The notes beneath the pieces are model-generated. The model did no database searches, was not told the DNA's origin, and saw only the letters and a list, made by a program, of their open reading frames with translations. DNA of 64,000 nucleotides from Egicoccus sp. AB-alg2. Its GTDB lineage: Bacteria; Actinomycetota; Nitriliruptoria; Nitriliruptorales; Nitriliruptoraceae. Location: contig NZ_JBGUAX010000010.1 of the NCBI RefSeq assembly GCF_041821065.1, positions 62,001 to 126,000 of the forward strand. Reading direction: 5' to 3'. Below are positions 1,433 to 46,608 of this stretch, piece by piece; position 1 is the stretch's first letter, and every line of letters begins with the position of its first letter. The translations under genes were made by a program, and so were the position numbers.

Positions 1433-3009
1433 CAGCGCACCTCCGCGAGCGTCAGCGGTGGGGCGTGCAGGTAGGTGATCGACGGGTCGCGACCGACCGT
1501 GTCGCTGGCCATCTCCAGCGCGTCGGTGAGCGTGCCGGCGGCACGGAAGCCCATGCGCCGGGCGACGGCCGGGTCGGCCCCGACCCAGATCACGTCGCCG
1601 AGGTGGTCCATGCCGTGGGCGCCCCAGTACCACATGTAGAACGGGTGCACGCCGTGGTAGGCGTGCGACTCGCGGTAGAGGTGCACGTACCACGGGTCGG
1701 CGGCGTAGGCCTGCTCGTACTTGCTCTCGATCAGCGCCGGGTCGGTGGTGTCGGCCAGCACCTGGTCGAAGAAGTCGATGTAGGACGGGTGGTGGACCTG
1801 GTGGAACTCGCGCCGCAGCGGGTGGAACAGGATCATCACGCCGCCGTGGCGGACCAGCGGGCGGCCCCGGTACATGTTGAAGAAGTACCCGAGGCCCATG
1901 CACATGGCCAGGATCGGGTTCATGATCGAGTTGACGTTGTAGGGCCCGACGTAGGGGATGCCGGTCACCAGCACGTCGGTCTGCCCGTCGACCTCGACCA
2001 GCTGCTGGCGGTGCACGTGCTGCAGCGTCACGGGGTGCACCGCCTCGGTCTCGCCGGCCTGCACGCTGGTGAGCCGGAACGGCGCCCGTGAGGCGTGCAT
2101 CGCCCGACGGCGCGCCTTGGCCGGCATCCGGTCCAGCGCGCGCTGCAGGGTGAAGGCGGCGGCCTGGTCCTTGACCGACCACTCCCACTCGCGCTTGGTG
2201 AAGAACGCGGCCTGTTCGGGGAAGGCGGCGTTGTTGACCGTGGTCTCCACGGTGAAGATCGTCAGGTGTTCGGCCAGCAGCCGCCCCATCCGGGTCGCGG
2301 AGCCGTGCAGCGCGCTGTGGCCCGGGTCCATGTAGCTCTTGGAGCGCAGCATCGTGTGCACGTTGTGGTGCGGCCGCAGGCTGCGGTAGCCGGCCAGCCC
2401 GACGGGCACCGACTTATGCCCGCCGTCCATCGTCACGAGGTTGACGTTGACGTACACGAGCAGGTCCGACTCGGCCGCGCGCCGGTTGATCTCCACGTCC
2501 TCGCCGTGGTCGGTCACGCCGACATGGCGCATGCCGTGGGGGTCCTCGGCGTCGTGGTTGCGCAGGTGGTCGGGCCAGAACGAGCGGAACACCCGGTCGC
2601 CGACGATGTGGCGCAGCTCGTCGGCGGTCATGCGCCGGTGCAGGGCGTTGGCGGCGATCAGTTCGACGTCGTCCACGCCGACCTCGGCCGCCAGGGTCAG
2701 CACCTGCTCGATGACCCGCTGCCGGATGTCGGGCCGCCGCATGCTCGGCAACGGCAGCGACAGGTCGTCGAACGCGATCGTCAGCCGCATGCCGGGGAAC
2801 AGCAGCTCCCGCAGCGGTGGGCGGCCCATCGGGTGCTCGAGCGCATGGGCGATGGCGGCGTCCGGGTCGGGCAGGCCCGGCAGCACGTCGGGCGGGTAGA
2901 CGGCCCGCGTGCCCAGCGGGAAGCGTTCGAACCGCAGCTGCTCGCCGGCGTGGACCAGCAGCGGCGGCGTGCGCTCGTCGACCTCGACGACGACTCCGGG
3001 GCGTGGCAT
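1432..3009 (-). CDS. LarA-family (DUF2088) nickel-pincer-dependent enzyme homologue
   Basis: This 525-residue protein has the LarA superfamily N-terminal domain. LarA enzymes use a nickel-pincer nucleotide bound covalently to a lysine to racemise or epimerise 2-hydroxyacids. Visible landmarks are the histidine in ANALHRRM (about residue 125) and GGHKSVPVGLAG (about residue 200), where the lysine matches the cofactor-binding Lys of LarA, followed by a HHN histidine pair. It is about 100 residues longer than lactate racemase, with a C-terminal part rich in aromatic residues and histidine. A good AAGGAG ribosome site precedes the ATG. The substrate is unknown. Because the neighbours handle acyl-CoA and lipids, a long-chain hydroxyacyl substrate is an inference, not an observation. 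Confidence 0.8.
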   Translation of the reverse strand: MPRPGVVVEVDERTPPLLVHAGEQLRFERFPLGTRAVYPPDVLPGLPDPDAAIAHALEHPMGRPPLRELLFPGMRLTIAFDDLSLPLPSMRRPDIRQRVIEQVLTLAAEVGVDDVELIAANALHRRMTADELRHIVGDRVFRSFWPDHLRNHDAEDPHGMRHVGVTDHGEDVEINRRAAESDLLVYVNVNLVTMDGGHKSVPVGLAGYRSLRPHHNVHTMLRSKSYMDPGHSALHGSATRMGRLLAEHLTIFTVETTVNNAAFPEQAAFFTKREWEWSVKDQAAAFTLQRALDRMPAKARRRAMHASRAPFRLTSVQAGETEAVHPVTLQHVHRQQLVEVDGQTDVLVTGIPYVGPYNVNSIMNPILAMCMGLGYFFNMYRGRPLVRHGGVMILFHPLRREFHQVHHPSYIDFFDQVLADTTDPALIESKYEQAYAADPWYVHLYRESHAYHGVHPFYMWYWGAHGMDHLGDVIWVGADPAVARRMGFRAAGTLTDALEMASDTVGRDPSITYLHAPPLTLAEVR

Positions 3010-3036
3010 GGCGGCTCCTTGGGCCGGTGCGAGCGG

Positions 3037-4245
3037 CTACGGCGTGGCGCCGGTCAGGTCGAAGGCGACCTTGGCCGTGCCCAGCCGGCCCGCATCCAGC
3101 GCGTGGTCGACGGCCTGGCGCCACTGCTGCAGCGGATAGGTCGCCAGCGCGAGACGGTCGAGCGGGGCGGTGGTCGCCAGATCGGTGGCGAGGTCGAAAC
3201 CCGACCGGTGCCCGGCCACGGGTTCGCGCCCGCTGGCGTAGGCGCCGACGACCGTGAGCTCGCGGAACCAGGCCGGGGACAGGTCGACCCCGGGCGGGGG
3301 CATGCCGGCCAGCACGACCCGGCCGCCGGCGCGGGTGGAGCGCAGCGCGAGGTCCAGTGACCCGCGCGAGCCGGCGCAGTCGATGGCGACGTCGACACCG
3401 CCGAGCAGGAAGTCGCGGCCGAGATCCGGCCGCAGGCGGAACGCGCCGGTGTCGCGCCGGACGGTGCCGGTGGCGCCGTCGACGGGGGTCACGGTAGAGG
3501 CGCCGAGTTCACGGGCCAGGGCCTGTTGGCGTGGGTGCTTGGCGGTGGCGACGATCCGGCCAGCCTCGGTGAAGGCGCGCAGCGCGAGGATGGTCAGCAG
3601 GCCGACGACGCCGCTGCCGACGACCAGCACCTGCTCGCCCGGGGCGGGCTCGGCCCGCAACGCCGCGTGGATCGCGCAGGCGAGCGGCTCGATCAGCACC
3701 GCCCGTGCGTCGGGCAGCGCGTCGGGGACGGCGTGCAGCTGGGAGCGGTGCGCGACCAGTTGCTGGGACCAACCGCCGCCGACGTCGGCGCAGTAGCCGG
3801 TCTGCAGTCCGGGTGCGAGGTGGCCCACGGTCACGTGCTTGCACCGGCTGGTGGTCCCGGCCGCGCAGGCGTCACACGGCGGCAGGCCGCGCGGATCGCA
3901 GCTGAGCAGCGGGTCGAGCACCACACGGGTCCCGGCCGGCAGCCCGTCGACGTCGTCGAGGAGTTCGCCGACGACCTCGTGGCCGGGGGTGATCGGGAAC
4001 GTCACGAGCGCGGAGAAGTAGGGCGAGGTGGTGCCGGCCAGCATCGACAGGTCCGAGCCGCAGATGCCCGACAGCCGCGGGCGGACGCGCGCCCAGCCCT
4101 CGCCGTGCAGCGACGGGGCGCTGGTCGACACCAGGCGCAGGGGCGCCAGGCCGCTGGACACCACGCCGGGCAGCCGGGACGAGAGTGCACGCGAGGCGAA
4201 GTAGCGCGGCAGCGAACGGTGTACCTGGAGCGCGAGCACGTCCAT
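3037..4245 (-). CDS. Zinc-binding medium-chain alcohol dehydrogenase
   Basis: This 402-residue MDR-superfamily oxidoreductase resembles threonine or alditol dehydrogenases. The catalytic-zinc region GICGSDLSML and the glutamate of GHEVVGE are present. The structural-zinc loop is unusual: CDPRGLPPCDACAAGTTSRC supplies four cysteines with atypical spacing. The NAD(P)-binding motif VVGSGVVGLL lies near residue 210. The ATG overlaps the stop of the upstream reductase fusion (TGATG), so the two are translationally coupled. In this operon it could interconvert an alcohol and an aldehyde made by the acyl-CoA reductase, but the substrate is not evident. A 27-nt gap separates it from the LarA-like gene. 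Confidence 0.85.
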   Translation of the reverse strand: MDVLALQVHRSLPRYFASRALSSRLPGVVSSGLAPLRLVSTSAPSLHGEGWARVRPRLSGICGSDLSMLAGTTSPYFSALVTFPITPGHEVVGELLDDVDGLPAGTRVVLDPLLSCDPRGLPPCDACAAGTTSRCKHVTVGHLAPGLQTGYCADVGGGWSQQLVAHRSQLHAVPDALPDARAVLIEPLACAIHAALRAEPAPGEQVLVVGSGVVGLLTILALRAFTEAGRIVATAKHPRQQALARELGASTVTPVDGATGTVRRDTGAFRLRPDLGRDFLLGGVDVAIDCAGSRGSLDLALRSTRAGGRVVLAGMPPPGVDLSPAWFRELTVVGAYASGREPVAGHRSGFDLATDLATTAPLDRLALATYPLQQWRQAVDHALDAGRLGTAKVAFDLTGATP

Positions 4246-43840: not shown

Positions 43841-44353
43841 GTGGACGCCGACACCATCGAGTTCTTCGTCGAGGTCCCCATGGGGTCCCGCAACAAGTAC
43901 GAATGGGACTTCGCCCGCCAGACCTTCGTCCTCGACCGGATGCTGTTCACGGCGGTGCGCTACCCCGGCGACTACGGCTTCATCCCGCAGACGCTGGCGC
44001 TCGACGGCGACCACCTCGACGTGGTCTGCATCCTCGGCGAGCCAACCTTCCCCGGCTGCACGGTCCACGCCCGGGTGCTGGGGATGCTCGACATGAGCGA
44101 CGACAAGGGCCCGGACGAGAAGATCCTCGCCGTCGCCGACCACGACCCGCGCTGGCGCGACCTGCGCGAGTTGGAGGACGTGCCGCAGCACCTGTTGGAC
44201 GAGATCGCCCACTTCTTCGAGATCTACAAGGATCTGGAGCAGAAGCTCGTCGACGTCCGTGGCTGGCGCGACCGCCAGGCCGCCCTGCAGGTGATCGCCG
44301 AGGCGCGGGAACGGTTCCCCGGGCCCGCCGAGGTGGTCCGCTACCCGCTCTGA
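43841..44353 (+). CDS. ppa: Inorganic pyrophosphatase (soluble, family I)
   Basis: This 170-residue soluble pyrophosphatase hydrolyses PPi to phosphate. The active-site metal-binding pattern is DGDHLDVVC, preceded by YPGDYGFIPQT and the N-terminal EVPMGSRNKYEWD. The GTG at 43841 is chosen because a clear CAGGAG lies 8 bases upstream and the length fits. An earlier in-frame GTG at 43784 would add 19 unrelated residues. Together with hppA it gives both energy-conserving and energy-wasting PPi disposal. Confidence 0.93.
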   Translation: MDADTIEFFVEVPMGSRNKYEWDFARQTFVLDRMLFTAVRYPGDYGFIPQTLALDGDHLDVVCILGEPTFPGCTVHARVLGMLDMSDDKGPDEKILAVADHDPRWRDLRELEDVPQHLLDEIAHFFEIYKDLEQKLVDVRGWRDRQAALQVIAEARERFPGPAEVVRYPL

Positions 44354-44479
44354 CCGCGGCCGCGGTGGCCCGAGGAGTGGGGCCACCCCGTCGCGCGGCG
44401 GCCCGAGGAGGGGGCCGGCCGGCCGCGCGGCGGCTACGGTTCGTGGCCGTCAGGTGCCGACGCCCGGGAGGTGGCGCGC

Positions 44480-45040
44480 GTGGAACGGCCACAGCTGCAA
44501 CGCGTCCTCGCGGACGACTACCTCGACGGGCTCGACGCCTGGCCCACGGCCGACGTCCGCGCCGCCCGCGCCGCCTGCGAGGCCGAGGAGGAAGCCGTCT
44601 CGTACGCGCGCCGGCTCACGCAGGGCCGCCTCGACATCCTGCGCGACGAGCTCGAGCGACGGCACGCCGGCGACGGCGACGGCCGCGGCGGCGACCACCG
44701 GGCCGGTGACGTCCTGGCGCGGCTGCCGGCGATCCTCGCGGCCGACCAGCCGCCCAGCGACCCGGCCCGCGCCCGCGCCACCCGCCTGCGCGTCCCGGCC
44801 GGCGCCGAGGCCTACGAGGCGGAGATCGAGGCCCTGGTCGGCGAGGGCTTCCTCGGCGACCTGCCCGGGCGGTCGACCGACGAGGTGGCGGACGCGGTCG
44901 AGCGGCTGGCCGCCTACGAGCACGAGCTGTCGACGGCCCGCCGGCGCCTGTTCGAGCGCATCGACCGGCTCCGTGACGAGCTCGCGCGCCGCTACAAGGA
45001 CGGCTCGGCGGCCGTCCGCGACCTGTTCGGCGACACATGA
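44480..45040 (+). CDS. rsiG: RsiG-like anti-sigma factor with c-di-GMP motif
   Basis: This 186-residue, mostly helical protein contains the RsiG c-di-GMP pattern E(X)3S(X)2R(X)3Q(X)3D exactly once, at E37, S41, R44, Q48 and D52. A second copy at E147, S151, R154, F158 and D162 has Phe in place of Gln. In Streptomyces venezuelae, RsiG carries two such motifs, binds c-di-GMP and holds the sigma factor WhiG. The GTG at 44480 is preferred: GGGAGG lies 8 bases before it, while the upstream GTG at 44471 has no spacing. The stop overlaps the asparaginase start. WhiG is not in the window. Confidence 0.75.
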   Translation: MERPQLQRVLADDYLDGLDAWPTADVRAARAACEAEEEAVSYARRLTQGRLDILRDELERRHAGDGDGRGGDHRAGDVLARLPAILAADQPPSDPARARATRLRVPAGAEAYEAEIEALVGEGFLGDLPGRSTDEVADAVERLAAYEHELSTARRRLFERIDRLRDELARRYKDGSAAVRDLFGDT

Positions 45041-46026
45041 GCGCGACGGCCCCCGCGGGGGTGCTGGTCGGTGAGCCGCTCGCCGAGGTGACACGACGCG
45101 ACGAGGCCGGTGGACGCCACCTCGTGGAGTCGGTCCACCTCGGTCACGCCGTGCTCACCGGTCCGGAGGGCGAGGTCTTGGCCGCGGTGGGCGAGGCCGA
45201 CCTGCCGGTCTACGTCCGCTCGGCGGCGAAGCCGGTCCAGGCCACCGCGTGCCTGGAGATCCTCGGGGACGCCGAGGTGCCCAGCCCACCGGAGCTGGCG
45301 GTCGCCTGGGCGTCCCACCGCGGGGAGCCCCAGCACGTCGACGCGGTGCGCCGGCTGCTGCACCGCTCGGGGACCGCGCCCGAGCAGCTGACGTGTCCGC
45401 CGGCCAGCCCGGAGGCCGATCCGGGTGCGACGCCGGCCCGTATCCTGCACAACTGCTCCGGCAAGCACGCGTTGTTCGCGCTGGCGGGCGCCCGGCAGGG
45501 CACCGACCGCCGCCGACTGTTGGACCGCGAGGGCCCGCTGCAGCGCATCGTGCTGGCGCACCTCGCCGACGCCTTCGGGCCGGTGCTCGGCGTCGCGGTC
45601 GACGGCTGCGGTGCGCCCGCGGTGGCCGTGCAGCTGTCCGCGCTGGCCCGCGCATTCGGGCGCGTGGCCACCGACGACCGGTTCGAGGCGGTGCGCGAGG
45701 CCGGCTTCACCCACCCGGAGCTCGTCGGCGGCCAGGGACGGCTGGAGTCGGCGCTGCTGGCGGCCGGCGTGGTCGCCAAGGTCGGTGCCGAGGGTGTCTA
45801 CGGCGTCGGCTGGACCGGCCCGGACGGCGGACCGCGCGGCTTCGCGGTGAAGGCGACCGACGGGGCCACCCGCGGCGTCGCCGCGTTGACGATCCACCTG
45901 CTGGCGCAGTTGGGCGTGGTCGACGCCGGTGTGTGGTCGCCGCCGCCACCGCTGGGCGGTGGCAACCCGGTCGGCGTCGTACGGCCGACGGCGGCGGTCG
46001 ACCGCCTGACCGCGGGTTCCCGCTGA
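45037..46026 (+). CDS. Asparaginase (Rhizobium etli type II family)
   Basis: This 329-residue protein of the Asparaginase_II (PF06089) family hydrolyses asparagine to aspartate and ammonia. It shows YVRSAAKPVQA near the N-terminus, WASHRGEPQHV and LHNCSGKHALF, and the DGCGAPA motif, all typical. The catalytic serine and lysine lie in SAAK and the SGKH segment. The ATG overlaps the RsiG-like gene's stop (ATGA). No obvious link to c-di-GMP signalling is seen beyond this coupling. Confidence 0.87.
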   Translation: MSATAPAGVLVGEPLAEVTRRDEAGGRHLVESVHLGHAVLTGPEGEVLAAVGEADLPVYVRSAAKPVQATACLEILGDAEVPSPPELAVAWASHRGEPQHVDAVRRLLHRSGTAPEQLTCPPASPEADPGATPARILHNCSGKHALFALAGARQGTDRRRLLDREGPLQRIVLAHLADAFGPVLGVAVDGCGAPAVAVQLSALARAFGRVATDDRFEAVREAGFTHPELVGGQGRLESALLAAGVVAKVGAEGVYGVGWTGPDGGPRGFAVKATDGATRGVAALTIHLLAQLGVVDAGVWSPPPPLGGGNPVGVVRPTAAVDRLTAGSR

Positions 46027-46086: not shown

Positions 46087-46608
46087 GTGAGCGACGAGGC
46101 GCAGCGCCCGATGTCGACGGCCGACGAGCTGCGCACGGCCGCGGAGTCGCGTGCTCATGCCTCGCCGCTGGAGGAGCTGGGCGGCTACATCCGCCACCAG
46201 CGCGAGTCGGCGCGCCTGTCCCTGCGCAAGCTCGCGACCCTCGCCGGAGTCTCCAACCCGTACCTGTCGCAGATCGAGCGTGGGCTGCGCAAGCCGTCCG
46301 CGGAGATCCTGCAGGCGATCGCCAAGGCCCTGGAAATCTCGTCGGAGACCCTCTACGTCAAGGCCGGCATCCTGGAGGAGCGCGAGGGCGCCGAGGACGT
46401 CGAGGCGGTCGTGCAGCGTGATCCGCACCTGACCGACCCGCAGCGGCAGGCACTGATCGAGATGTACCGGTCCTTCCGGCGCCTGTCGGAGCTGCAGGCC
46501 GAACCTCGCCAGCGGCGCCGGGGACTGCTCGACGTGGTCACCACGGGTGGCGTCGACGACGCCGCCGTGCGGGCGGCCGCGCCTCGCGAGGAACCCGAGG
46601 ACGCCTGA
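46087..46608 (+). CDS. XRE-family transcriptional regulator
   Basis: This 173-residue regulator has a single Cro/C1-type helix-turn-helix (SLRKLATLAGVSNPYLSQI, then ERGLRKPSAEILQAIAKAL) and a short helical C-terminus (TDPQRQALIEMYRSF). It resembles the mycobacterial Rv0474 group. The GTG start has GAGAGGA about 11 bases upstream. The target genes are unknown. Confidence 0.88.
   Translation: MSDEAQRPMSTADELRTAAESRAHASPLEELGGYIRHQRESARLSLRKLATLAGVSNPYLSQIERGLRKPSAEILQAIAKALEISSETLYVKAGILEEREGAEDVEAVVQRDPHLTDPQRQALIEMYRSFRRLSELQAEPRQRRRGLLDVVTTGGVDDAAVRAAAPREEPEDA

Follow-up and report, generated by a model that had tools for sequence, protein, structure and literature searches.

The question raised by this locus is whether a protein that carries one perfect and one altered copy of the RsiG c-di-GMP motif is an anti-sigma factor of the RsiG type, and what the altered copy means. 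The gene lies in the window, that is, the whole 64,000-nucleotide stretch of Egicoccus sp. AB-alg2 (class Nitriliruptoria) that was analysed, and its features are listed in Table 1. The encoded protein matched the Pfam RsiG family PF22802 over two stretches (E 8.9e-23, 80.2 bits against a gathering score of 27), and phmmer aligned residues 13-186 with RsiG of Streptomyces venezuelae (6pfj_T, E 5e-17). By these matches, the identity proposed in the initial annotation, an RsiG-like c-di-GMP anti-sigma factor, was confirmed at the level of sequence. The single-motif RsiGs of Rubrobacter were matched weakly and through motif 1 only (phmmer, E 4e-4), and no NCBIfam model matched the protein. Chance similarity as the source of the RsiG matches is ruled out by the E-values. 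The genome, which is 98% complete, contains one rsiG copy. Its open reading frame (44471-45040, plus strand) lies downstream of a soluble pyrophosphatase gene ending at 44353 and offers a first GTG at 44471, giving 189 aa, and a second in-frame GTG at 44480, giving 186 aa; the second is the likelier start because GGGAGG lies about 9 nt upstream of it.

Table 1. Positions in the window of rsiG, its motifs and the genes downstream
Feature	Positions	Strand	Basis or remark
rsiG, twin-motif c-di-GMP anti-sigma factor (predicted)	44480..45040	+	PF22802; 6pfj_T; AF2 model
Likely ribosome-binding site GGGAGG	44465..44470	+	~9 nt 5' of GTG 44480
c-di-GMP motif 1, helix alpha1, EEAVSYARRLTQGRLD	44588..44635	+	E-S-R-Q-D, perfect
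c-di-GMP motif 2, helix alpha5, EHELSTARRRLFERID	44918..44965	+	E-S-R-F-D
L-asparaginase II gene	45037..46026	+	PF06089 E 5.3e-69; overlaps rsiG by 4 nt
HTH (XRE-type) regulator gene	46087-46608	+	downstream of asparaginase

An AlphaFold2 monomer model built with 76 sequences (pLDDT 88.5, pTM 0.80) predicted two long helices, at residues 26-65 and 136-177, joined by a looser linker, which corresponds to the twin-motif fold, a single chain in which alpha1 and alpha5, separated by a long linker, pair as an antiparallel coiled coil. The only Foldseek matches below E 0.001 were two chains of S. venezuelae RsiG, 6pfv_T (E 2e-5) and 6pfj_T (E 6e-5). VIA-align gave Z scores of 13.4 and 13.2 for these chains at 37-39% identity, with the next chain at 9.4; coiled coils match many things, and the weight of the fold match lies in this gap and in the sequence identity. 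The likeness to S. venezuelae RsiG (AmfC, 6pfj/6pfv) thus comprises full-length homology and, in the predicted monomer, an antiparallel coiled coil with one motif on alpha1 and one on alpha5. The RsiG of Rubrobacter radiotolerans (PDB 7lq2-7lq4) has a homologous motif-1 helix, but it is a homodimer of chains of about 85-118 aa with a single motif, whereas the window protein has 186-189 aa and contains alpha5 with motif 2.

The initial annotation had called the first motif perfect and the second one a copy with Phe for Gln, and both readings held. When E(X)3S(X)2R(X)3[Q/H](X)3D was applied, EEAVSYARRLTQGRLD matched at every position with E-S-R-Q-D, while EHELSTARRRLFERID presented Phe (codon TTC, 44951-44953) at the fourth position, where strictly Q or H was sought, with E, S, R and D all in place. 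With the pattern widened to E(X)3S(X)2R(X)3[QHFLMIY](X)3D, a six-frame scan of the 64-kb window returned the two rsiG motifs as its sole matches. According to the solved RsiG complexes (PMC8325347), the motif Gln makes a stacking contact with a guanine; guanine edges are recognized by D and R, and the ribose is bound by E and S. In many homologues His replaces the motif-1 Gln (PMC8325347). The Phe at this guanine-stacking position is a difference from S. venezuelae RsiG, which has Gln.

RsiG was detected in 51 of 66 genomes of the host class, and the motifs were tallied in 49 complete twin-motif RsiGs of the class, the window protein among them. Motif 1 read ESRQD in 40, ESRHD in 8 and ESRLD in 1, while motif 2 read ESRFD in 23, ESRLD in 20, ESRMD in 2, ESRID in 2, ESRQD in 1 and VSRLD in 1, so that 47 of the 48 class relatives carry Phe, Leu, Met or Ile at the fourth position. 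Phe marks most of the window's own family; among the named relatives, Nitriliruptoraceae MAGs have Phe, and Euzebyaceae and Egibacteraceae MAGs have Leu. Across 44 Streptomyces loci the residue was Q in every readable case, and 37 other twin-motif RsiGs had Q (15), H (14), F (5) or L, I and Y (1 each). Some of the Phe and Tyr cases come from Acidimicrobiia and from the Actinomycetota families f75 and f27 (L102-L106, L170), whose twin-motif RsiGs are otherwise distant in sequence from the window protein. In an alignment of 76 twin-motif RsiGs, S44, R47, S154, R157 and D165 were invariant and E40, D55 and E150 were at least 90% conserved.

Because Phe, Leu, Met or Ile occupies this position throughout the class while the other motif residues are kept, the aligned sequences mark the motif-2 substitution as old, fixed and limited to a single position. 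The residue that appears imperfect is, on this tally, a trait of a whole bacterial class with no sign of decay, and the label 'degenerate' given to the motif in the initial annotation was wrong. Since Phe, Tyr, Leu or Ile is found there in other twin-motif RsiGs too, the published motif is, by these alignments, too strict at the fourth position of motif 2. Pseudogene decay of rsiG is ruled out by the kept E, S, R and D.

A substitution at a position that touches the ligand in the solved complexes (PMC8325347) could nevertheless weaken the motif-2 half-site, so that the protein would bind one c-di-GMP, or two asymmetrically, with an altered threshold or stoichiometry. The two half-sites are indeed chemically unequal, with Gln or His in motif 1 and a hydrophobic residue in motif 2, each in 48 of 49 class members. 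However, E, S, R and D are conserved in motif 2 to the same degree as in motif 1, decay would not yield a single aromatic residue across most of a family, and other twin-motif lineages have Phe, Tyr, Leu or Ile at the same place; we therefore consider a weakened half-site unlikely. The same low likelihood is given to the broader version, in which the class-wide loss of the motif-2 Gln would have left unequal half-sites with a shifted threshold, an asymmetric geometry or 1:1 c-di-GMP as a natural retuning of the switch. The altered binding stoichiometry suggested in the initial annotation gained no positive evidence from the sequences and was not supported. By analogy with the solved complexes, an aromatic or large aliphatic residue could plausibly still pack on the guanine base; a literature search found no RsiG in which Leu, Ile, Met or Phe at this position was tested.

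The absence of a WhiG-type sigma factor from the genome had been set beforehand as a result that would refute the RsiG reading; a clear WhiG is encoded in the genome, so the reading was not refuted. Among eight proteins with sigma-70 region 3, the WhiG orthologue (G000:C6:328576-329352, minus strand) scored 279.6 bits, above the FliA_WhiG cut-off, and matched S. venezuelae WhiG (6pfj_A) with E 4e-91. Its stretch SPLVKYVAGRV is identical to that of S. venezuelae, in which KYVAGR corresponds to K57-R62; the c-di-GMP-touching residues K57, G61 and R62, by which a cognate WhiG was to be recognized, are thus kept. The same K, G and R were kept in 30 of 30 class orthologues read. The genome also contains 14 GGDEF matches and therefore has the capacity for c-di-GMP. 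In 34 class genomes at least 90% complete, RsiG and WhiG were both present in 27, both absent in 6 and discordant in 1 (Fisher p 5e-6, kinship ignored). The discordant genome, G029 (97% complete), carries an RsiG remnant that lacks motif 1 (L068:1584-2000, minus strand, G029:C224), and no WhiG orthologue was found in it, an apparent co-loss as judged from these sequences.

As a further difference from the S. venezuelae system, the window genome has genes for flagella together with a FliA-like sigma factor as its second one (G000:C5:473953-474621), and RsiG might restrain this flagellar sigma instead of, or besides, WhiG. Motility is commonly under c-di-GMP control in bacteria, and the FliA-like gene adjoins csrA (E 4e-24) and flagellin genes, with a FlgN-like gene nearby that gave a weak match below the cut-off. 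Against this, the FliA-like sigma has, by eye, N, N and Q where WhiG has its c-di-GMP-touching K, G and R, it scores far lower with FliA_WhiG (179.5 versus 279.6 bits), and the presence of RsiG tracks the WhiG orthologue. The two kinds of sigma factor are separated class-wide as well, with WhiG orthologues above 270 bits and FliA-like proteins at or below 135, one contig-end fragment excepted. A role of RsiG on the flagellar sigma is, on this evidence, very improbable.

The genome was also scanned for a WhiG regulon with the flagellar/WhiG consensus TAAA-N14..16-GCCGATAA. No exact match and no match with one mismatch was present in the genome, and two mismatches at spacing 15 gave 16 matches as compared with 10 in the reversed control, which is no regulon signal. 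The promoter match beside the FliA-like gene seems, by eye, to lie inside a coding frame. Class-wide, matches with one mismatch were sparse and scattered, a large share of them in one genome whose control was high too.

In the published model, a single-motif homodimeric ancestor was followed by one intragenic duplication (PMC8325347). A tree of 112 single helices over 45 columns, which is short and has mostly weak inner forks but two well-supported main splits, resolved two clades, one with every sampled canonical alpha5 helix (49 helices, 99/99) and one with every sampled canonical alpha1 helix (49 helices, 99/94). These clades are common to all sampled canonical twin-motif RsiGs, those of Streptomyces included, and the window alpha1 and alpha5 are nested within their respective clades, beside those of the window's own genus. 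The placement therefore indicates descent from the same duplication as the canonical twin-motif RsiGs, and the phylogeny identifies the window protein as a fully derived member of that type. The initial annotation had raised the idea of an intermediate, which would stand in evolution between the single-motif dimers and the twin-motif monomers of RsiG. In favour of this idea are a source class outside Streptomyces that is absent from the main text of the published survey and a motif 2 departing from the published one, but it is contradicted by both well-supported clades and by an alignment to Streptomyces RsiG that is nearly full-length, linker included, which makes it extremely improbable. A separate case is the twin-motif RsiG at L112:2225-2698 (minus strand, G165:C2), whose helices are both similar to the single-motif RsiG found in its family. 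This resemblance suggests a second, independent duplication, although the AU test (p 0.24) did not reject a placement of its second helix with the canonical alpha5 helices.

Taken together, homology, motif conservation, the predicted fold, a WhiG that keeps its K, G and R and co-occurs with RsiG, and the GGDEF genes make it very probable that the window protein is an anti-sigma factor of the RsiG type, armed by c-di-GMP and directed at the WhiG of the same genome, with a clade-specific stacking residue. We infer that it binds c-di-GMP, inhibits WhiG and uses its motif-2 Phe for stacking. One RsiG chain would form the antiparallel coiled coil in which alpha1 and alpha5 each show E-S-R-x-D, as in Streptomyces. 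At high c-di-GMP it would bind an intercalated c-di-GMP dimer, and the loaded protein would clamp sigma2 and sigma4 of WhiG and keep the sigma factor off RNA polymerase, to release it again when c-di-GMP is low. The motif-2 Phe most likely takes over the part of Gln, stacked or packed against the outer guanine, which would leave the stoichiometry at 1 RsiG : 2 c-di-GMP : 1 WhiG.

The coupling of rsiG to an asparaginase gene, also reported in the initial annotation, was borne out by the PF06089 match and by an ATGA overlap (ATG at 45037, rsiG TGA at 45038-45040). Among 20 named class or class-like loci whose downstream sequence was long enough, 18 had a same-strand asparaginase II gene downstream; of the other two, one is labelled a Proteobacteria MAG. 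The linkage is a further likeness to Streptomyces, where asparaginase II lies downstream of rsiG in 26 of 42 loci, in 25 cases no more than 250 bp away. In contrast, asparaginase was not found at 12 single-motif rsiG loci checked, the flanks of which were short. The linkage is therefore conserved, but as far as known it stands outside the switch, and our literature search found no paper naming both amfC and asparaginase. Some Acidimicrobiia loci without asparaginase have an HTH gene directly after rsiG, so the rsiG-HTH neighbourhood is conserved too.

RsiG-type modules were also seen in other settings. At L252:820-1677 (G359:C7), a single RsiG module, EQEISYERRILHAKID (PF22802 E 1.7e-14), stands behind Clp_N domains (PF02861 E 1.4e-32) and is, by these domain matches, a predicted c-di-GMP module within another protein architecture. 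Two RsiG-like motifs 38 residues apart occupy the C-terminus of an acyl-CoA-synthetase-like enzyme at L257:1507-3117 (minus strand, G165:C7; AMP-binding enzyme PF00501 E 6e-20, PF22802 E 4.7e-10), possibly a c-di-GMP-controlled enzyme, and a third G165 open reading frame, L261:10-1674 (G165:C1), ends in two such motifs, ERAVSDRRLALHALID and EIEISERRRELHDRID. The complete genome G122 has three separate RsiG-type loci, L255 and L248 (G122:C1:418869 and 2743813) and C1:228231, at least two of them twin-motif. At L067 (G010:C8:131000-137000), a second RsiG copy (2887-3400, minus strand) lies next to an intact copy and is broken up among three reading frames, reflecting either decay or an assembly error.

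As a clade-specific variant of a known switch, the window protein is in itself an ordinary find. With it, a class absent from the main text of the published survey gains a full set of RsiG, WhiG and c-di-GMP genes, and the published motif is corrected, the fourth position of motif 2 being Q or H in Streptomyces and most sampled lineages and Phe, Leu, Met or Ile in the host class. The RsiGs of this class form a natural mutant series on the function of the ligand-contacting stacking residue, and the rsiG-asparaginase II pairing, kept from the host class to Streptomyces, is a testable link. With flagellar genes that have their own sigma factor and a separate WhiG, this genome could help to show what WhiG targets outside sporulating Streptomyces.
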